From a virus: a DNA stretch of 25,729 nucleotides. This document shows positions 2,558 to 14,759 of this stretch, one piece after another. Under the pieces are notes generated by a model that saw only the letters and a list, made by a program, of their open reading frames with translations, ran no database searches and had not been told where the DNA came from. The stretch spans positions 1 through 25,729 of IMG/VR virus record IMGVR_UViG_3300006077_000029. The stretch is one strand, 5' to 3'. Numbering within the stretch: the stretch's first letter is position 1; every line of letters starts with the position of its first letter. The position numbers and the translations under genes are program-made.

Positions 2558-3019
2558 ATGAGCACAGAGTATAAGAAGGAAATAAAAGAATGGTTATGGT
2601 GGACACACCGTAGACAAGTATTGCACTCTATAAGAAGAGGGCATAGACCTCCTGAATATACTCTAGAGCAACTAGGTGATTGGGTTAAAAGCCAACCTAA
2701 GTTTTTTGAGTTACTTGATGAGTGGATTAAGTCGAATAAAGCTACCCCTTTATATCCTAGTGTGGATAGAAAAGATAACTCTATTCACTACTGCTTCAAT
2801 AACATACAATTAATGACTTGGAGAGAGAACAATGCCAAGCAAAACTTTGAAATGGGAAAAGCTGTCACTCAACTTGATAAAAAGGGTAGGGTAATAAATA
2901 GCTACAAATCTATAAGGTCTGCAGCTAGAGAGCTAAACATATGTCAGAGTGCCATTACTAAAGTATGTAAAGGCAAAATGAATACAACCGGCGGCTACCG
3001 CTGGGAATACGTACAATAA
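2558..3019 (+). CDS. HNH-type (homing-like) endonuclease with NUMOD1-like C-terminus
   Basis: A 153-residue basic protein. The segment PSVDRKD (67-73) followed by NNIQLMTWRENN (81-92) matches the core of short phage HNH-type nucleases, usually seen as PSxDRxD...DNIQ. The first catalytic His of the classical motif is Arg71 here, as in many members of that group. Residues about 102-153 (VTQLDKKGRVINSY..., SAARELNICQSAITKVCKG, GYRW) fit a NUMOD1-type DNA-binding module common at the C-terminus of homing endonucleases. It has a strong AGGAGGG ribosome site (2546-2552). It sits between the long inverted repeat and the scaffold gene, a typical place for a free-standing selfish nuclease. A role in packaging, as HNH proteins near terminases have in some phages, is also possible. 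No intron is visible around it. Confidence 0.75.
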   Translation: MSTEYKKEIKEWLWWTHRRQVLHSIRRGHRPPEYTLEQLGDWVKSQPKFFELLDEWIKSNKATPLYPSVDRKDNSIHYCFNNIQLMTWRENNAKQNFEMGKAVTQLDKKGRVINSYKSIRSAARELNICQSAITKVCKGKMNTTGGYRWEYVQ

Positions 3020-6494: not shown

Positions 6495-6496
6495 TA

Positions 6497-6748
6497 ATGG
6501 CAGATGTACTAAGCGTAGCAGACATAACACCAATAGATAACAGTGATGTGGTGGACTTAACAGATGTAGTATTTGTTAAACAACTTGGAGGAGCTGAAGA
6601 TTTACAGTTTGGATTTGGTACAGTGATGCAGATTAGGAATGGGCACTCAGTTGTTGTTTCTTTGATTAATGCTGATACAATTCCATATGATACTAGCGAT
6701 ACAATTAAGACTATCTTAGATAAGATACTACTTAAATACCCACTATAA
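6497..6748 (+). CDS. Small protein sharing the tail-fibre N-terminal motif
   Basis: An 83-residue acidic protein of unknown function. Residues 27-48 (VKQLGGAEDLQFGFGTVMQI) closely resemble residues 6-25 of the next protein (IKQLAVTEDIEWGVGTVVQP). The two genes are adjacent, so this may be a short paralogue of the fibre's virion-attachment segment, a remnant of an older fibre gene, or a small adaptor between tail and fibre. The remaining sequence has no recognisable motif. The start overlaps no gene. The upstream AGAAGG is a moderate ribosome site. Confidence 0.55.
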   Translation: MADVLSVADITPIDNSDVVDLTDVVFVKQLGGAEDLQFGFGTVMQIRNGHSVVVSLINADTIPYDTSDTIKTILDKILLKYPL

Positions 6749-6758
6749 GGAGAGGTAG

Positions 6759-8150
6759 ATGTCATTACAGATTATTAAACAACTAGCAGTCACTGAAGAT
6801 ATTGAATGGGGTGTTGGTACAGTTGTACAACCTAGGGATGTTAGTGGTGACGGAGTGCCTACTGATGAGACCTTTAACCAAGTATCATCTGCTAGTATGC
6901 CTCATCTACAATTAGATGATACTACAGTAAGTGATGTGAGAACAGAGCTAAACGATAAGTACAGCAAGGCAGAGTCAGACGCTAAATTTGCTAGGATAAA
7001 TGGTGATGAAGTTGAGGTGTTCAGTGTTGCTGACCCTAGCATTAATTCTCATGCAGTTAACAAGGGTTACTTAGAGTCTTATATGGCTGGGCAGCTAGCT
7101 GACTATGCACTTAAAACAGAGGTACTCACTAAGACAAACCTTATTGCGTATTCTCCAACCTCAGACTATCACCCAGCTACTAAGAAGTATATTGATGACC
7201 TAGTTATATCAGCTGGTGCTGGTGATATGCTAAAGTCAGTGTATGACAGCCTTGATAATGGAGTAGTTAATGAGGCTAGACTTATTGATGGGGTAGGTAT
7301 CAATGATATCATGCATAATAGAGGGCCTGTTACAGATGCTGATAATGTAGCCGATACTGGTGTATGGGAAGGCTCTGATATAGCTAATGTTCCAGAAGCT
7401 GGTAAAGGGCTACTTAGGTCATACCTTGGAGCAACTCAAAGTATTGTTGTGCAGATGTACCATGGTATAGACTCAGGTAACATATTCAGCAGACGTAGTA
7501 ATAATGCTGTTTGGACCACGTGGGAAGCTATAGACGATAAGACTACAGTTGTTGATAACCTAGCTAGTACAAGTACTACAGATGCCCTAAGTGCTAATCA
7601 AGGTAGAATACTATCTGAGTCAATTACACAAGTTTCAGCTACAAACGTACCTGTTAATGGTATCATTATGTATTCAGGTGCTCTATCCAGTATACCTAAC
7701 AACTGGGCACTGTGTGATGGTTCTAATGGTACGCCTAACCTAGTAGATAAGTTTGTTCGTGGAACAGCTAGTCAGGCATACATAGGTAATACTGGTGGTA
7801 CAGACTCAGCGACCATGCCTTCTCACGCTCATAAAGGGCCAGCACACAGCCACAATGCTGCACATACGCATTCAGCTGGAACTGGCAATGATGGCGGGCA
7901 TCAGCATTCTATGACTACAAAACTAGATGGCGCTAAAGGTACTGATAATATTACTGTTAATAATGAGCCAGGGGCTACATGGGTAGATAACTTAATAACC
8001 TACGAAGGTATCCATAGCCACTCAGTAACAGTAAATGAGGCTAATTTTAATACATCAACAAGTGGCACACAGTGGACGTCAAGTGCTGGAGGCTCTGGTG
8101 ACAATAAACCAGCTTACTATACCTTAGCATATATCATTAGAGTTTCGTAA
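6759..8150 (+). CDS. Tail fibre with pyocin-knob-like and tail-collar domains
   Basis: A 463-residue receptor-binding fibre. Residues 1-30 look like a virion-attachment segment shared with the preceding protein. Residues 95-150 contain fibre repeats (NSHAVNKGYLESYM and YHPATKKYIDDLV). Residues about 165-258 end in IFSRRSNNAVWTTWEAI, typical of a pyocin-knob-like domain. LASTSTTDALSANQGRIL (268-285) precedes a tail-collar domain (298-345, VNGIIMYSGALSSIPNNWAL and GTPNLVDKFVRGT). A cluster of His-X-His motifs follows (356-383 and 419-421), like the metal-binding tips of T4-type fibres. The fold is probably a homotrimer. It has a strong ribosome site (AAGGAGAGG). Its stop overlaps the next start as TAATG. 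Confidence 0.85.
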   Translation: MSLQIIKQLAVTEDIEWGVGTVVQPRDVSGDGVPTDETFNQVSSASMPHLQLDDTTVSDVRTELNDKYSKAESDAKFARINGDEVEVFSVADPSINSHAVNKGYLESYMAGQLADYALKTEVLTKTNLIAYSPTSDYHPATKKYIDDLVISAGAGDMLKSVYDSLDNGVVNEARLIDGVGINDIMHNRGPVTDADNVADTGVWEGSDIANVPEAGKGLLRSYLGATQSIVVQMYHGIDSGNIFSRRSNNAVWTTWEAIDDKTTVVDNLASTSTTDALSANQGRILSESITQVSATNVPVNGIIMYSGALSSIPNNWALCDGSNGTPNLVDKFVRGTASQAYIGNTGGTDSATMPSHAHKGPAHSHNAAHTHSAGTGNDGGHQHSMTTKLDGAKGTDNITVNNEPGATWVDNLITYEGIHSHSVTVNEANFNTSTSGTQWTSSAGGSGDNKPAYYTLAYIIRVS

Positions 8151-9103
8151 TGAATGCAGAGGTTGAAACACTAAAACTGAGAGATAGTGAACGGTCTACT
8201 GTTCCATATCCCCAGGTGGGTATGGTACCCATAGGTGTTCCAGCTGATAATATAAGAGGCTCAGCTTATAATCTTACACCACTGGTTACATCATATAAGA
8301 ACAAACTTATTAATGGTGGGTTTGATGTATGGCAACGAGGCACAAGTGGTAATTCACCTAATTATGATAGTGCAGATAGATGGAGGCTATACACACAAGG
8401 TTTAGCTCCTACCCATAGTAGTTATCAGGGTTGGTATGCTATCTTAGCTGAGGTAGGTAATACTTACTGTTCTTTGTATCAGATAATAGAGTCTGGTACA
8501 TTTACCAGTAAGGATGTAGGAGCAGAGTTTACACTTAGTTTTGTACTTACTAGAGCTCAATCAGGTGGAGGTATAAAGATATCCTATCTTAACTCTCCTG
8601 ATAATGCCTCTACAATTACTGCAGTTTATGAGGAGGCTAGAGATTTAAAGAGTGGATTAAACTCATTCACTTTTACAATGACTGGTGTCCCTGAAAATGG
8701 AGTGCAGGTAGCTATTAGATTAGGTGCAGTTACTGATAGCAACCTACTTATTGATGATGTACAGCTAGAGCTAGGCTCAGTGGCTACAGCTTTTGAGCAT
8801 AGACCTATAGGTGTTGAGCTTGCTATGTGTCAGAGATACTATGAGGTATGTAACGAGCCAGGAGTAACTTACTCCGGCTCAATTACAAATGGTGGTGCTT
8901 ATTATGCTGTATATAAGCACACAGTGACTAAGAGGGTTACACCTACCACGGTAATTACACCAGCTCTAGAGTATGGGTTTGACCCATCTACACTGATAGT
9001 ATTTTCTGCGGATGTAAATTTTAGTGAGGCTAAATGCATTGCAAATAACTCAGTGGCTGCTGGTTATTACACAGCAAGTCTTGTAATTGATGCTGAGCTG
9101 TAG
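8150..9103 (+). CDS. Tail-fibre-associated carbohydrate-binding-like protein
   Basis: A 317-residue protein coupled to the fibre by a TAATG overlap. After a Pro-rich start, residues 51-64 read NKLINGGFDVWQRG. This begins a beta-sandwich domain seen in many phage fibres and resembling carbohydrate-binding modules. Residues about 204-232 (QLELGSVATAFEHRP and ELAMCQRYYE) are the usual end of that domain. The last 80 residues are beta-rich and form a separate tip. Binding to host surface glycans is likely from the family, but the ligand cannot be read from sequence. The coupling suggests assembly with the collar-domain fibre. Confidence 0.7.
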   Translation: MNAEVETLKLRDSERSTVPYPQVGMVPIGVPADNIRGSAYNLTPLVTSYKNKLINGGFDVWQRGTSGNSPNYDSADRWRLYTQGLAPTHSSYQGWYAILAEVGNTYCSLYQIIESGTFTSKDVGAEFTLSFVLTRAQSGGGIKISYLNSPDNASTITAVYEEARDLKSGLNSFTFTMTGVPENGVQVAIRLGAVTDSNLLIDDVQLELGSVATAFEHRPIGVELAMCQRYYEVCNEPGVTYSGSITNGGAYYAVYKHTVTKRVTPTTVITPALEYGFDPSTLIVFSADVNFSEAKCIANNSVAAGYYTASLVIDAEL

Positions 9104-9112
9104 GAGGTTGTA

Positions 9113-9511
9113 ATGTATAAAGTAAAATATATAGCTGATATATCTACACCTACAAAGTATACTGGGTATCTAGTGGATGATACACTTATAGTACCACTTG
9201 TAGAAGGTAATAGGCAGTATCAAGAGGCTCAGAATTGGATTGCAGATGGTAATACACCAGAAGTAGCTTATACGCAAGAAGAGTTGAAGGCTTATACTAA
9301 TAGTGTTGGGTTGTATGATGCTAAGTTATACTTAAGCAATAGTACTAGTTTACTGCCTCAAGATGTGCAAGATAGGTTGACTCAAGCAGAAAAAGACGCC
9401 ATAGTTGCGGACAGGTTATCAGCCATCGCAATCATAGAGGGTGAAGGCAGATCTGGCTTTGCAGTCAGTGACCTATCACTAGCAGTACTAAACAAATATA
9501 AAGGACAATAA
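9113..9511 (+). CDS. Putative tail fibre assembly or small virion protein
   Basis: A 132-residue protein. The stretch IVPLVEGNRQYQEAQNWIAD followed by GNTPE (26-50) resembles a short phage module often found in proteins beside fibres, including some fibre chaperones. The remainder is mostly helical (QDVQDRLTQAEKDAIVADRL) and acidic. It has a strong ribosome site (TAGGAGG) and its stop touches the next start. The role is inferred from neighbours, and it could equally be a fibre-bound structural protein. Confidence 0.45.
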   Translation: MYKVKYIADISTPTKYTGYLVDDTLIVPLVEGNRQYQEAQNWIADGNTPEVAYTQEELKAYTNSVGLYDAKLYLSNSTSLLPQDVQDRLTQAEKDAIVADRLSAIAIIEGEGRSGFAVSDLSLAVLNKYKGQ

Positions 9512-9748
9512 ATGGAAGCAACAAAAGGTGATTTAATTCAAGGTATGCCACTAGGTAGAGGTAATGCAACAAGCCCATACACGGTTCAAGAAATGGACAC
9601 GGTTGTTGAGTTTTTGGTAGATGGTGATGTGGTATGTAAGCTAGATAGTGGAGCTACTACAACCACATCTGTACTAGCTGGAGGTAGATATGCAATAGGA
9701 AAGGGTGTAGTTACTATTACAACAACTTCTACATTTAGTATAGGTTAG
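9512..9748 (+). CDS. Small beta-rich fibre-region protein, unknown function
   Basis: A 78-residue protein with no recognised family. The second half (VVEFLVDGDVVCKLDSGA, then GGRYAIGKGVVTITTTSTFS) looks like a single small beta-sandwich and is Thr-rich. The ATG directly follows the previous stop, with AAAGGA as ribosome site. It lies inside the fibre gene run, so a small tail-tip or fibre-cap protein is likely. Confidence 0.5.
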   Translation: MEATKGDLIQGMPLGRGNATSPYTVQEMDTVVEFLVDGDVVCKLDSGATTTTSVLAGGRYAIGKGVVTITTTSTFSIG

Positions 9749-9752
9749 TACC

Positions 9753-10202
9753 ATGCAACTATCATTAGGGCTAATGGCACGTAGACATGGTATCGTTAAA
9801 AATGCCTGTGTGCAGGAAGGTACTGATGGCATATGGTATGGTGCTGGCCCAGGTGTTGGGCAGATAGTACCACCATTCGCTATTGATGGTACTCCTATGT
9901 ATGCATTTATATGGGCAAGTACAGCAGCAGGTGAAGAAGGCACTATACTTATGTCCTTTGGTGACTTGGGTGATACTAAGCTTACTGATGTTAAAGAGAT
10001 AGTGATTACCAGCACAGAAGGCACACAGATACTTACATGGGATGCAACTAATACTGACTATAGAACAGTTAACTTAGAGCTTACAGATGCACTTATAGCA
10101 GACTATGAGTTAGATAAAGTTAGGTGTTTCAAAGCAGATGTGCTTATAGAAGGTCTATTGCTTCACTATACATTCAGCGCAATACTAACAGGGAGTAGAT
10201 AA
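9753..10202 (+). CDS. Fibre-region protein with a motif shared with the next gene
   Basis: A 149-residue protein of unknown function. It contains GVGQIVPPFAIDG (34-46) and LTWDATNTDYRTVN (94-107). Related pieces (GTVNPPEFLG and FVWNATYNDYNTIN) occur in the same order in the middle of the following 736-residue protein. The two probably share a domain, through duplication or modular exchange. The ribosome site is weak (only TAGG), so translation may depend on the gene upstream. A structural tail role is likely. Confidence 0.5.
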   Translation: MQLSLGLMARRHGIVKNACVQEGTDGIWYGAGPGVGQIVPPFAIDGTPMYAFIWASTAAGEEGTILMSFGDLGDTKLTDVKEIVITSTEGTQILTWDATNTDYRTVNLELTDALIADYELDKVRCFKADVLIEGLLLHYTFSAILTGSR

Positions 10203-10203
10203 T

Positions 10204-12414
10204 ATGAAAACTAAAACATTTCCTCTTTTTAAGAAGAATGATATAAGTGTACAGGCAACAGGTGACCATAATAATGGTACAAGATATGTTAAGAATGAGG
10301 TAGCCCTAGTAGCTCCTTCATTTGATGGTAATGTGCATAGTGGACGCAGCGTTGCATTGAGTAGTGATGGTGCTATTGATGTGCCTATTAATGCTACTTT
10401 GGGGAGTGAGCTAATTACAGGTACATGGACATTAAATACGGGATGGGTCAATAATGGAGACGGAACTTTTACTTATGATGGAGCTTCATCTGGTAGTGGT
10501 ATGTATGTACTGATAGATGGGAGGTTTCCAGTTAATTCAAATGTAGTCTTTGAATTTGAATTACTTACTGAAACATCATCAGTATATACTAGAATAGGCT
10601 CAGATACTATAGGTATTAGTGAACATGCATCTGGCTCTGGGGTGCATACGCTTGAGTGTACAAACTGGAATGGTAATGGTGCAGGGCTAAATTTTATTCC
10701 TTCTACTGCTACAACACAAGTACATATTAGACCTATATCAATCAAAGAAATCCAATCAACACAAGGACAAATATCATATTACAATGTAACTACAAAACGT
10801 CATGAGAGTATTGACAGTTTACCACTATCAACCACATACAGACTAGAGAACCTAGAGTTCAATAACCTAGTAGTGCTATGGGATAGAAGCTTCACACAAG
10901 CAGACCGTGACAAGATGGACGCTAACCCTGAGTTAGTTGTCAGATGGGCTAAAGGTGAGGATGTATTTAGTATTGGTGTGATAGGTGTTAATGATAAGGT
11001 GTATGTTGGTAGTGATACAGATGCTTTCCTGCGCTCAATACAAAGTACACAGATAGCTATCAGTGGTACATACACACGAAACACAAACTTAAACTATGGT
11101 ATTCAAACACTAGGGTTAAAACTAAATAGTGCAGGGGTTCCTACATCTATTGCAGATGCTAACACATTGAGCTTTGTTAATAACACTAGTGGGTATGTAG
11201 ATACACAACTTACACCATCTATGGATAAGTATACTATTGAATGGAATGGTATACTATCTAGTGGGGTTACTGAGCAAAGAGTATTAACACATGATGCAGC
11301 TGTTGGAGATAACTACTATATAGATGGAATACTACAAGGTGCAACACCTGCACTACCTAGTCCAACTGAGTCTATTAAGCTGAGCAACACAGCACCCATT
11401 GGGTTTGCAGATACAGTTGATACTATATATGACCCATTCAAAGTATGGTCAACAGTGGAAGATGTGGAAGTTAATACATGTAATAATACTGATATATGTC
11501 TAGGTGTAGGGGATGCAGGAGATAGTCAACACTATGGTTACTCTGATACATATGGCACAGTAAACCCACCTGAGTTCTTAGGACTAAAGATTAAAGAGTT
11601 GCAGGCTGATACGATTGACGGTGTTGTCTATGCTAAGATGGGAGAGAGCGGTACAGAAGCAGTGCCTAATTTGCCTTCAATGAAATGGGATGTTGTTGGG
11701 TTTGGGCTTGCTGAATTTGTGTGGAATGCAACATACAATGATTACAATACGATAAACGCATCACTTGCAACATTTATAGCGAATGGTGTAGGAGGTAACC
11801 TAGGTATGAATGTAGACCCTGACTTTGTGTATGACCCTATAACAGATAGTGCTGATTGGTCAAGACTAGGTACAGGTACTTCAGTAATTAGAGTTAGAGA
11901 GTCAGATGGTGTAGTTGTAGCTTATGGTGCTACCTCAGCAGAAGCATCTGTAATGTATAAGAACAACTCATTTGATGACGGGTTCATAGAAGCTACATTC
12001 TTATATAGACAGACGAGTAACGGAGTAGCTAGTTTTCCTATGGCTATCCGTATGGTTAGTGATAGTACATTTATTGGTTGTCGGTCTTATGATACTAATA
12101 TAGAGGTGTATGAGAGAGTTGATGGTGCATTTAATCGTCTTATAGCTATACCTAACCCTAGCACTGAAAACTATGTGGTTAGGGTAGAAGTTATAGGCAC
12201 TGAGTTGAAGATGTTTGTTGATGGTGTACTTGAAGCAACTGTTACTACAGCAGTTAATGCAATAGGTGGAGCAGGTATGATAGCAAGAGGCCACTCAGGA
12301 GGAGCTATTGGTATGGCTAATGGCTATTCAGTAGGTGCATTTACAGAAGTGTACATAACAGATGATGCTGGAACACCATTAGTTGATGATTCAGGAACAA
12401 AAATAATAGTATAG
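10204..12414 (+). CDS. Large multidomain receptor-binding (tail-spike-like) protein
   Basis: A 736-residue, beta-rich protein. Residues about 63-180 (LITGTWTLNTGWVNNGDGTF, a long sandwich, then HIRPISIKEIQ) look like a carbohydrate-binding module. A middle part (430-520) contains the W-N-A-T-Y-N-D-Y motif shared with the preceding protein. Residues about 548-725 (NNSFDDGFIEATFLYRQ, then VRVEVIGTELKMFVDGVLEA) have the pattern of a concanavalin/LamG-like lectin sandwich. No catalytic dyad for a depolymerase is evident. It probably sits at the tail periphery and binds host polysaccharide. The domain calls are from sequence texture and need fold comparison. Confidence 0.6.
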   Translation: MKTKTFPLFKKNDISVQATGDHNNGTRYVKNEVALVAPSFDGNVHSGRSVALSSDGAIDVPINATLGSELITGTWTLNTGWVNNGDGTFTYDGASSGSGMYVLIDGRFPVNSNVVFEFELLTETSSVYTRIGSDTIGISEHASGSGVHTLECTNWNGNGAGLNFIPSTATTQVHIRPISIKEIQSTQGQISYYNVTTKRHESIDSLPLSTTYRLENLEFNNLVVLWDRSFTQADRDKMDANPELVVRWAKGEDVFSIGVIGVNDKVYVGSDTDAFLRSIQSTQIAISGTYTRNTNLNYGIQTLGLKLNSAGVPTSIADANTLSFVNNTSGYVDTQLTPSMDKYTIEWNGILSSGVTEQRVLTHDAAVGDNYYIDGILQGATPALPSPTESIKLSNTAPIGFADTVDTIYDPFKVWSTVEDVEVNTCNNTDICLGVGDAGDSQHYGYSDTYGTVNPPEFLGLKIKELQADTIDGVVYAKMGESGTEAVPNLPSMKWDVVGFGLAEFVWNATYNDYNTINASLATFIANGVGGNLGMNVDPDFVYDPITDSADWSRLGTGTSVIRVRESDGVVVAYGATSAEASVMYKNNSFDDGFIEATFLYRQTSNGVASFPMAIRMVSDSTFIGCRSYDTNIEVYERVDGAFNRLIAIPNPSTENYVVRVEVIGTELKMFVDGVLEATVTTAVNAIGGAGMIARGHSGGAIGMANGYSVGAFTEVYITDDAGTPLVDDSGTKIIV

Positions 12415-12423
12415 GAGAATAAA

Positions 12424-13107
12424 ATGGCAAGAACAATAAATGATGTAATGACATCTGGAGAGATAAAAACAATAGTTGTTAACGACAACATCCAATATAA
12501 TAAAGCAAAAGTAGGGGCAGATGGTATGTTCCTACGGATTGGTGCAGGAGGGGCTACTGAGTTATACAGAGCAGTTGACCAAGATGTTGTGATGATTGAT
12601 GATGTAACAGTTTCAACACCAATACCTTCTGCATGGACTCAAATGTTCAGTATTACACTTACTACGGATGTAACACCGGAGAATGGTTCCATGGTATTTA
12701 GTGGTGACTTCTTCAATGATAGCTCACAAGATAGAGAATTGTGGATGCGTATGATGGTAGATGGAGTACAAGTAAGAAGTGACTTCATATTTGACTTATG
12801 GAAAGACACAGCCAATGACCATCAACAAGTTATCATGTCAACAACACCTGAAAATACTTTCTTATCAGGTCAAGTAGTAACGCTAGAATTAGGTGCTGAT
12901 TCTGACGGTAACATAACTATGAATGGTGATTACCAACAAGGAAGGTTAAAGATTACAGAGGCACAAGCAGCACCAGTAGCAGGAACATATATGAACACAT
13001 CTTCAATCGAAACATTCGATTGGAACCTACTACCACATGGAGACCCTGGAATATCAGGACAACTATACATTGCACCTAACAACACTATTAGAGTGAGCCA
13101 AGGGTGA
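12424..13107 (+). CDS. Fibre-region structural protein, unknown
   Basis: A 227-residue protein, last of the fibre run. The N-terminal part has KAKVGADGMFLRIGAGGATE followed by LYRAV, a small repeat-like beta element. The centre (residues about 55-175) is a probable jelly-roll (TPIPSAWTQMFSITLTTDVT and later RELWMRMMVDGVQVRSDFIF). There is no signal peptide. The ribosome site AGGAG is good. Its TGA overlaps the GTG start of the next small lipoprotein. Likely a virion protein, but no family is recognised. Confidence 0.5.
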   Translation: MARTINDVMTSGEIKTIVVNDNIQYNKAKVGADGMFLRIGAGGATELYRAVDQDVVMIDDVTVSTPIPSAWTQMFSITLTTDVTPENGSMVFSGDFFNDSSQDRELWMRMMVDGVQVRSDFIFDLWKDTANDHQQVIMSTTPENTFLSGQVVTLELGADSDGNITMNGDYQQGRLKITEAQAAPVAGTYMNTSSIETFDWNLLPHGDPGISGQLYIAPNNTIRVSQG

Positions 13108-13253
13108 AAAAGATAGTAACTAGGTTAGTTTTAACCTCAATATTAATGATGATACTTATAGGTTGCGCATCCATAGTCAATCAGACTATGGAATTCTCAT
13201 TATTGAATGTGAAGGCTACTAGCACTACTGAACATTATTCGGAGAAAAAATGA
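13104..13253 (+). CDS. 49-residue lipoprotein, possible outer-membrane spanin-like
   Basis: Starts at GTG 13104, overlapping the previous stop (GTGA), and ends in ATGA overlapping the next start. The product begins MKKIVTRLVLTSILMMILIG and continues CAS, a clear signal peptide with lipobox L-I-G-C, the lipidated cysteine being residue 21. The mature part is only 29 residues (ending STTEHYSEKK). No Asp follows the cysteine, so outer-membrane sorting is expected. Very short outer-membrane lipoproteins are typical of o-spanins, but a matching inner-membrane spanin is not clear here. Overlaps on both sides support it as a real gene. Confidence 0.6.
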   Translation: MKKIVTRLVLTSILMMILIGCASIVNQTMEFSLLNVKATSTTEHYSEKK

Positions 13254-13570
13254 AAAAGTTAGTATTAGTATTTATGCTTACATCATCTATGTTTGCAAAC
13301 AGCTTCTTTCAAGAAGAAGATAAGCAGATGCATATAGTAGCTACAAGTGCTATAGGGTTTACTGCTAATGCCATAGCTTACAAGGAGTATGGTCTAACTG
13401 CTGAACAGTCATTTTGGGTTGGCGTAGCTGCTGCCTTAACCGTAGGGCTTGCAAAAGAGTTATATGACAGTAGAAGTGGAGGTACAGGTTTTGACAGTAG
13501 AGATATGTTAGCTGATGGTATAGGTGGGGTCATTGGCTCTGGAGGTATGTATGTCATATACAGATGGTAG
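13250..13570 (+). CDS. Exported YfiM/DUF2279-like protein
   Basis: A 106-residue protein with signal sequence MKKLVLVFMLTSSMFANS and no lipobox. The mature part EDKQMHIVATSAIGFTANAI, then GLAKELYDSRSGGTGFDSRD and MLADGIGGVIGS, shows the pattern of YfiM/DUF2279-type envelope proteins: D-K-x-x-H near the start, a hydrophobic segment, K-E-x-x-D, then D-x-x-A-D-x-x-G. Such proteins occur in many phages close to lysis or tail genes, and their biochemical role is not settled. It is tightly coupled to the lipoprotein before it, and its last 20 bases overlap a small membrane-protein gene. Confidence 0.6.
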   Translation: MKKLVLVFMLTSSMFANSFFQEEDKQMHIVATSAIGFTANAIAYKEYGLTAEQSFWVGVAAALTVGLAKELYDSRSGGTGFDSRDMLADGIGGVIGSGGMYVIYRW

Positions 13571-13664
13571 TGATTACCTTGTAGCTATAATAGTTATGGG
13601 CTTAACTGCCTCATGGGTGGTATTCAAGTGGTGTCATTGTAACGATGACTATAAACTTAAATAG
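13551..13664 (+). CDS. 37-residue single-pass membrane protein, overlapping gene
   Basis: ATG at 13551 is preceded by a perfect GGAGGT (13541-13546) inside the end of the previous gene and reads in another frame. The product starts MSYTDGSDY and has one transmembrane segment (YLVAIIVMGLTASWVVF). It ends KWCHCNDDYKLK with a C-H-C pair. By the positive-inside rule the C-terminus would be cytoplasmic. The ribosome site and position next to two envelope genes support it as real. A tiny holin/antiholin or other lysis accessory is possible, but nothing proves it. Confidence 0.5.
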   Translation: MSYTDGSDYLVAIIVMGLTASWVVFKWCHCNDDYKLK

Positions 13665-13709
13665 ATGGGAGTCTAGCCTTTACCTAGGCTCTCATGTGTT
13701 TAAAACACA
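13665..13709 (+). promoter_or_regulatory. Paired-hairpin leader, copy 1
   Basis: ATGGGAGTCTAG (13665-13676) pairs with CTAGGCTCTCAT (13684-13695) over 12 pairs including two G-U, with loop CCTTTAC. Overlapping its end is the near-palindrome TGTGTTTAAAACACA (13695-13709), followed by a run of A. The same order recurs at 14432-14468. It starts at the end of the 37-residue gene and precedes the collagen-like gene. There is no U-run, so a classical terminator is unlikely. RNA stabiliser, processing site or phage promoter are open options. Confidence 0.55.
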
Positions 13710-13729
13710 AAAAGACATAAAGGGAAATT

Positions 13730-14425
13730 ATGAAAAAGTTAATTGTGGCTGTAATGGCTTTGATGTTAGTTGGTGTGTTTGCTCAAGCTGGGAATACTGG
13801 CTATACGTATGACAGACACGGCAGTTCGGATAGTCAAGGACCAAAAGGTGATACTGGTACTAATGGTATAGATGGTATTGACGGTACTAATGGAATTGAT
13901 GGTACTAATGGAATTGATGGTACTAATGGAATTGACGGCACCGACGGTGTAGATGGTCAGGATGGAATTGACGGTACTAACGGTGTAGATGGTCAGGACG
14001 GTGTAGATGGTCAGGATGGTGTAGATGGCGAGCCCCTAGTTGGTACAGCAGGTTATTCCGGTACTGATGGTGAAGATGGTACTGACGGAGCAAAAGGCGA
14101 CAAGGGTGATAAGGGCGATGATGGAGCAGATGGTAAAGATGCTCCTATTCAAGAGAACCCTACATTTGCACAACTAGCTGATTATGCTTTAGACTCTGGT
14201 GCTGGTAATACAGCAATGGCTAACATTGATTTTGGTTCAGTTGGTGAAGGAGAGACTGAAGGTGGTATAGGTATTGGATATACTTCTTCTAGTTGGGGTT
14301 CATCTACAGCTGGAGCAGTTGGTATTAAACATGGTGTTACTAATGACACAGCAGTAGTTGTAAAAGGTTGGAGTGCAAGCTCAGACTCTTATGGTGTAGG
14401 TGCTGGCGTAGTTCATAAGTTTTAG
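13730..14425 (+). CDS. Secreted collagen-like protein with YadA-type membrane anchor
   Basis: A 231-residue protein built as a miniature trimeric autotransporter. Residues 1-20 are a signal peptide (ending VFAQA). Residues 37-136 are Gly-X-Y collagen repeats, rich in GTNGID and GVDGQD, with one two-residue break (L103-V104) and a charged end (AKGDKGDKGDDGADG). The C-terminal 80 residues (IGIGYTSSSWGSSTAGAVGI, then VVVKGWSASSDSYGVGAGVV and final HKF) have the four-strand pattern and terminal aromatic residue of YadA-type anchors, which form a trimeric outer-membrane barrel. Predicted role: a trimeric stalk on the host surface made during infection. A virion fibre is less likely because of the signal peptide and anchor. 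It has its own leader with AAAGGG ribosome site. Confidence 0.75.
   Translation: MKKLIVAVMALMLVGVFAQAGNTGYTYDRHGSSDSQGPKGDTGTNGIDGIDGTNGIDGTNGIDGTNGIDGTDGVDGQDGIDGTNGVDGQDGVDGQDGVDGEPLVGTAGYSGTDGEDGTDGAKGDKGDKGDDGADGKDAPIQENPTFAQLADYALDSGAGNTAMANIDFGSVGEGETEGGIGIGYTSSSWGSSTAGAVGIKHGVTNDTAVVVKGWSASSDSYGVGAGVVHKF
13883..14029 (+). repeat. 18-bp tandem repeats inside the collagen-like stalk
   Basis: GGTACTAATGGAATTGAT is repeated at 13883, 13901 and 13919 (last copy one base different). GGTGTAGATGGTCAGGAT or its GAC variant is repeated at 13946, 13982 and 14000, with a partial copy at 14018. Each unit encodes two Gly-X-Y triplets. Nearly identical DNA copies allow slippage that would change stalk length without a frameshift. 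Confidence 0.85.
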
Positions 14426-14431
14426 TAGAGT

Positions 14432-14468
14432 GAGGTTCACTATGTGAGCCTTGCTGTGTTCAAACACA
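14432..14468 (+). promoter_or_regulatory. Paired-hairpin leader, copy 2
   Basis: GAGGTTCAC (14432-14440) pairs with GTGAGCCTT (14444-14452) over nine pairs with two G-U and a TAT loop. Two bases later comes TGTGTTCAAACACA (14455-14468) and an A-run. Arrangement and the TGTGTT...AACACAAAAA core match the copy at 13665-13709. It precedes the 85-residue lipoprotein gene. Confidence 0.55.
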
Positions 14469-14492
14469 AAAATTAAATGTTAAGGATTTAAA

Positions 14493-14750
14493 ATGAAAAA
14501 TATTATACTTGTAGCTATTGCTACTTTGGCCCTAGTAGGGTGTAGTGAAGGTGATGTAACCAATAACACTAATAACTATAACTATGGTACTATCGTTGGT
14601 GATGGTGCCTACTACGTTGAGGTTAACGGAGATGGCGATGTTATCTCGTGTACCACAACAGTACAAGATAGTAATGGTACTACATCAACACAGACTTGTA
14701 GCTCAACAGAAATTGCAGATGCTCAAGAGCTAGTAGATACAACAAATTAA
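14493..14750 (+). CDS. Small lipoprotein
   Basis: An 85-residue protein whose start MKNIILVAIATLALVGCSEG is a signal peptide with lipobox L-V-G-C (lipidated Cys17). The mature part is Asn/Thr/Gly-rich (NNTNNYNYGTIVGDGAYYVE) and contains two further cysteines (near 53 and 69) that could form a disulfide in the periplasm. Ser at +2 favours the outer membrane. It has its own leader and AAGGAT ribosome site and lies next to the collagen/YadA gene, so both probably modify the host envelope, for example blocking a receptor or superinfection. No family is recognised. Confidence 0.65.
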   Translation: MKNIILVAIATLALVGCSEGDVTNNTNNYNYGTIVGDGAYYVEVNGDGDVISCTTTVQDSNGTTSTQTCSSTEIADAQELVDTTN

Positions 14751-14759
14751 AGGATATGT

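Follow-up and report, generated by a model that had tools for sequence, protein, structure and literature searches.

Trimeric autotransporters and their phage relatives

The trimeric autotransporters of bacteria (TAAs, type Vc) are exported by the Sec route, trimerise, insert a barrel in the membrane and project their passenger through it. In the YadA-type members a coiled-coil neck usually, though not universally, precedes the membrane anchor, and collagen fits a threefold anchor of this kind. Phage proteins that join collagen to a YadA-type anchor are already known from annotation. In 2013, yadA homologues of the virulent Salmonella phages FSL SP-058 and SP-076 were described, located away from the tail genes, and taken as possible virulence genes (PMC3728262). 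In the open-access literature covered, we found no functional study of phage YadA-anchor proteins. The case discussed here is a divergent variant, encoded in a virus record of IMG/VR that is a fragment of 25,729 bases and is called the window below. The first-pass annotation of this DNA knew of no described phage system of this form. This view has to be given up: relatives are present in 73 phage records and in 11 IMG/VR contigs, several of them with a collagen stalk, and the Salmonella phage homologues had been published.

The 73 records match a phage anchor query of this type in a collection of 50,697 phage records, and they span podo-, sipho-, myo- and jumbo phages. As cases in point, they include Schitoviridae (FSL SP-076, S6), Kuravirus (phiEco32, with the similar EcP-vB and Bas90), Ackermannviridae (SKML-39), Straboviridae (Phynn), the siphovirus MED16 and jumbo phages such as Munch and GAP32, while FLC9 and Yoloswag came to light through other anchor queries. 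The 11 contigs overlap in part with the phage relatives that were read individually. Pfam anchor scores of 17 scanned phage relatives range from 45 to 70 bits, several of these proteins matching Collagen too, and a signal peptide, collagen and an anchor are combined in EcP-vB, phiEco32, FSL SP-076, PCSE1, RF1 and Munch. Every relative read individually, as well as the 11 contigs, displays a start that resembles a signal peptide. For phiEco32, Bas90 and LIET2 this start is an internal ATG, the annotation having placed the beginning of the gene further upstream; in the anchor proteins of phiEco32 and Bas90 (L193:5491-6288 and L198:871-1788) that ATG opens a clear signal peptide. Matches to the whole window protein (36 viral, 70 genome) are mostly matches to collagen, with an anchor at the end in two of them only, L037 and L055, and 80 further collagen-bearing viral loci yielded no new anchor beyond those found with the anchor queries.

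The names given to these proteins vary. Relatives are annotated 'adhesin' or 'tail protein', some of them 'agglutinating' or 'autoagglutinating adhesin', and UniProt calls several phage proteins 'YadA-like C-terminal membrane anchor domain-containing protein'. The families phrog_26246 and phrog_17426 are filed under 'tail', yet they consist at least partly of proteins with a signal peptide and a YadA anchor (L199, L194, L185, L183, L188), which makes the label doubtful. In the neighbourhoods examined, the relatives' genes are surrounded by small genes that are hypothetical, early or involved in nucleotide metabolism, or else, in PCSE1 and AAM22, the anchor gene and the virion genes are on different strands.

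A collagen stalk with a divergent anchor

The window gene (13730..14425; this and all features below are on the plus strand) is an open reading frame with an ATG start, preceded on its 5' side by AAAGGGAAATT, and it codes for 231 residues laid out as signal peptide, collagen and anchor. The predicted Sec signal peptide (13730..13789; type I, no lipobox) is MKKLIVAVMALMLVGVFAQA, followed by G: 20 residues with two Lys, a hydrophobic core (KD 3.2) and an AQA site, a call based on this pattern and on a scripted check of hydrophobicity and of the AXA motif. There follow 16 residues of mature chain (13790..13837) in which sequence and Pfam reveal no head domain. The collagen stalk itself (13838..14140, residues 37-137) scores 57.3 bits with Pfam Collagen (E 1.3e-15). 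Both the signal peptide and the roughly 33 Gly-X-Y triplets announced by the first-pass annotation were recovered, the triplets being exactly 33, in runs of 22 and 11 with a single interruption; if triple-helical, they would make a rod of about 29 nm. In the 93-residue C-terminus, residues 146-164 form a short helix (14165..14221) according to the AlphaFold2 model and the sequence, and profiles and predicted fold place the strands of a YadA-type membrane anchor at 14222..14422, the last residue being Phe. Sequence and model show no long coiled-coil neck: between collagen and strands there is just a short linker with the 19-residue helix. Treating the missing neck as a variation, we file the protein as TAA-like and not as a typical TAA.

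The same layout is found in the YadA-like protein of EcP-vB and in the 'agglutinating adhesin' of phiEco32 and FSL SP-076 (phrog_26246), and the feature that defines the phiEco32 and EcP-vB proteins, a signal peptide, a Gly-X-Y run and an anchor in a phage genome, is present in the window. These three proteins have 226-320 residues and 22-41 triplets. EcP-vB is the closest in layout, with signal peptide, 37 triplets, short neck and anchor in 258 residues. However, the three possess a neck that resembles a coiled coil and extends over several tens of residues, where the window protein has no long neck, their anchors score 69-70 bits, well above the Pfam cut-off that the window anchor fails to reach, and their genes lie away from virion genes whereas the window gene is beside tail-fibre genes. 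The uncultured phage L037 (IMGVR_UViG_3300009136_000050) codes for a protein of 145 residues which, as in the window, has a signal peptide and an anchor but no long neck. Its stalk is shorter (8 triplets), its anchor scores higher (Pfam 18.7 bits, our own HMM described below 29.5 bits) and its gene neighbourhood is different. Both proteins share a segment FAQ...A.A..DF.S, but in a pairwise BLOSUM alignment they score no better than shuffles, so that their kinship rests on profiles and layout. Directly after the L037 gene stands a second small collagen gene (L037:6438-6941), whose first half includes a hydrophobic stretch.

Among bacterial proteins, the trimeric autotransporters YadA, Hia and AtaA match the window protein in anchor profile and predicted fold; it differs from them in having neither head nor coiled-coil stalk, in being encoded by a phage and in being very short. 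A metagenome-assembled Moraxella sp. genome (L055:4363-4638) also joins collagen to a YadA anchor, but in a bacterial genome and within an open frame of 924 residues that has a coiled-coil neck; it possibly illustrates the type of bacterial source. The collagen-like adhesin Lcl and SclA/SclB match in the collagen only, far under the cut-offs, and are anchored otherwise.

An architecture like that of trimeric autotransporter adhesins suggests a function as host-surface adhesin, by which infected cells would stick together or to surfaces, easing local spread, and the 'agglutinating' and 'autoagglutinating' labels of phage relatives point the same way. These names, however, rest on homology only, and the window protein has no head domain: its passenger is almost only collagen, in a mature chain that is acidic (37 D+E against 9 K+R). 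We consider this adhesive role unlikely, while giving it some weight.

Whether the C-terminus is truly an anchor had to be settled below the usual thresholds. The proposed match to PF03895 (YadA_anchor) exists, but at 13.9 bits (E 0.06) it stays under the curated cut-off of 22.7; against the window record alone the profile gives 16.8 bits (E 1.8e-4). A Pfam gathering score is a threshold on scores and not a biological feature. In view of the low score, an independent HMM of 79 positions was made from 47 bacterial anchors taken from Pseudomonadota genomes. It scores the window C-terminus at 16.4 bits, colinear over positions 10-76, a value reached by none of 20,000 composition shuffles nor by any of 20,000 shuffles with Gly held fixed, while the reversed C-terminus scores -2.7 bits. 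When it was run on 8,169 six-frame open reading frames of the fetched loci, the listed matches comprised, besides L037 and the window frame, strong anchors only. Shuffles and this background rule out chance similarity between Gly-rich sequences as the source of the score.

Further, a single one of 38,880 PHROG families matches the C-terminus, weakly (phrog_8062, E 0.46). Bona fide phage anchors match the C-terminal half of this family at E 6e-31, which identifies it as a phage anchor family. In a 13-sequence alignment, identity between the window C-terminus and ten phage anchors is 25-28%. By tblastn it has no match in the 50,697 phage records; a pattern scan of IMG/VR gave no confirmed match, and against 369 genomes of the class of Moraxella there were weak matches only, taken as noise. 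Protease matches returned by phmmer against the PDB were put down to chance, and a mixed alignment of bacterial and phage anchors proved too diverse to serve as a scanning profile.

The predicted fold leads to the same place. With the 13-row alignment, the AlphaFold2 monomer of the C-terminus (pLDDT 86, pTM 0.73) displays a helix (8-26), a short strand (29-33) and four long strands (42-51, 54-64, 69-78, 83-91), and type Vc chains are likewise each made of a helix with four long strands. The five leading Foldseek matches in the PDB are, in order, the anchors of Hia (three times), AtaA and YadA, with TM 0.69-0.75, and the next is an unrelated protein; in BFVD the leading matches are mostly phage proteins named YadA-type or adhesin. 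As the alignment includes true anchors, the model and the claim of homology are not entirely independent. From the single sequence the order of helix and strands is unchanged at pLDDT 42, and this is not counted as evidence. Another BFVD match, the 168-residue 'collagen triple helix repeat family protein' of Synechococcus virus S-ESS1 (A0A1V0DX45; probability 0.99, E 0.022), is possibly another small phage collagen stalk.

Between an anchor and no anchor, the profile tests and the monomer model thus favour the anchor. Shuffles, PHROG link, colinear alignment and fold match agree in identifying the predicted C-terminal domain as a divergent YadA-type anchor, as had been proposed along with the terminal Phe. 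The window copy is set apart by this divergent anchor, by the missing long neck and by its site next to predicted lipoprotein genes within an island of tail-fibre genes. It also shows that curated domain cut-offs can overlook divergent members of a family.

The island and its exported proteins

The window carries a podovirus gene set: terminase, scaffold, major head protein, tail-stabilisation-like protein, DNA-ejection-like protein and portal. Between the terminase and scaffold genes, an open reading frame with NUMOD1 and I-HmuI-NUMOD-like domains (2558-3019) likely codes for a homing endonuclease. Head proteins of Pseudoalteromonas phage PH1, Edwardsiella phages KF-1/ETP-1, Vibrio phage VPMS1 and Dickeya phage Amaethon share 39-45% identity with that of the window, and all these phages infect Gram-negative hosts. 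Comparison with relatives delineates an island of 8.3 kb (6495..14759), made of tail-fibre genes and a cassette for exported proteins, the genes that flank it being 0-1.3 kb apart in three relatives.

The Eib trimeric autotransporters of E. coli are prophage-borne, and the stalk might likewise be an adhesin of lysogenic conversion. Eib proteins belong to the TAAs (PMC4352079). Against this, no integrase or lysogeny gene was found among the open reading frames of the window, itself a fragment, and the relatives include phages described as virulent (PMC3728262), which leaves conversion a very improbable explanation.

In the cassette, the collagen-anchor gene is preceded by a gene for a small predicted lipoprotein of 49 residues (13104..13253; lipobox LIGC), whose GTG start overlaps the preceding stop, and by one for an exported protein (13250..13570) that resembles DUF2279/YfiM-family lipoproteins through profile matches under curated cut-offs (phrog_26616, E 9.6e-13; YfiM, 52.7 bits for a cut-off of 117). 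It is followed by a gene for a predicted lipoprotein of 85 residues (14493..14750; lipobox LVGC, weak LPAM_1). No cassette protein matches a known anti-phage defence family of PADLOC-DB. Predicted lipoproteins next to the window gene, and an L037 copy that follows internal virion proteins and is surrounded by small predicted membrane proteins, could fit a lysis helper acting through a load on the machinery of outer-membrane assembly, through its blockage, or by weakening the outer membrane. Yet no lysis protein is known to have this build, and the relatives' genes are located elsewhere; such a role seems hardly probable.

Two RNA hairpins of 12 bp with a matching layout, two of the three longest perfect hairpins in the window, frame the gene: one in its leader (13665..13695, z -3.8), followed by a small GUGUU/AACAC hairpin, the other right after it, where it belongs to the leader of the lipoprotein gene that follows (14429..14455, z -3.6). 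They were not retained as intrinsic terminators, as no U-tract follows the stems; our guess is that the pair serves processing or stability.

Display on the host surface or in the virion

A secreted collagen rod joined to an adhesin-type membrane anchor suggests that the virus plants a stalk on the surface of its host, and display on this surface, rather than incorporation into the virion, is the reading that we consider probable. The signal peptide would send the chain through Sec, three chains would join into a trimer, the C-terminal helix and strands of each would contribute to one outer-membrane barrel, and the collagen part would form the 29-nm triple-helical rod outside the infected cell, the protein staying out of the virion. 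Both the domain reading and the inferred exported, surface-anchored trimer that the earlier annotation had put forward find support. Display on the infected cell is suggested by the signal peptide and by a virion proteome: LC-MS/MS of MED16 virions lists 11 proteins, and the anchor protein gp62 is not among them (PMC8306585).

To be sure, several observations run counter to display on the host. The gene is in line with late genes, between tail-fibre genes and tail/portal genes, in a late structural region where the relatives' genes are not; a homologue in the record of Yersinia phage fHe-Yen8-01 reads 'receptor binding protein, phage particle associated'; and PHROGs files close families under 'tail'. 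Collagen, moreover, is common in phage tail fibres. All this would suit a virion fibre or receptor-binding protein that uses its signal-like N-terminus and anchor-like C-terminus in assembly or in contact with the outer membrane. Cyanophage virion proteins with a YadA domain have been described, by domain name only (PMC9146016). But the signal-peptide-like start in all relatives read would be unusual if assembly took place in the cytoplasm, the anchor protein is absent from MED16 virions, and in most relatives the gene is not close to virion genes. A place in the virion is, on balance, quite unlikely.

As for the purpose of a stalk displayed on the host, the first-pass annotation suggested that it might exclude competing phages, change adhesion or retain released virions. 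Neighbouring lipoprotein and fibre genes recall exclusion factors of the Llp/Cor type. Llp of T5 and Cor of T1 are phage superinfection-exclusion proteins at the host outer membrane (PMC9586334, PMC11990801), Llp being a lipoprotein that blocks the receptor of its own phage (PMC9586334), and according to the BASEL paper (PMC11990801) some small siphoviruses encode factors for superinfection exclusion where their receptor-binding protein is encoded. Llp and Cor are, however, receptor-binding lipoproteins with no sequence relation to the window protein, and the likeness is possibly one of function only. An acidic rod of 29 nm could hinder the access of tails or shield receptors, including those on debris after lysis, and together with the neighbouring predicted lipoproteins it might turn infected surface and debris into poor targets for further adsorption. 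We advance adsorption blocking as the likeliest purpose, though a tentative one, with aggregation of cells next in line.

Speculating beyond the window, phage trimeric-autotransporter stalks, those with collagen among them, may constitute a general class of organelles that virulent phages build on the surface of their hosts, for the most part wrongly filed under tail proteins; they would change who adsorbs to the infected cell, and the window copy would be a divergent member that lacks a neck and moves together with a tail-fibre island. Annotation pipelines group these proteins with tail fibres, which may cause them to be mistaken for receptor-binding proteins in host-range prediction. If they are displayed on hosts, unrelated virulent phages share one surface device. 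The BASEL phage SkaterBoy (Bas90), which infects E. coli K-12, carries such a protein, making its purpose directly testable.
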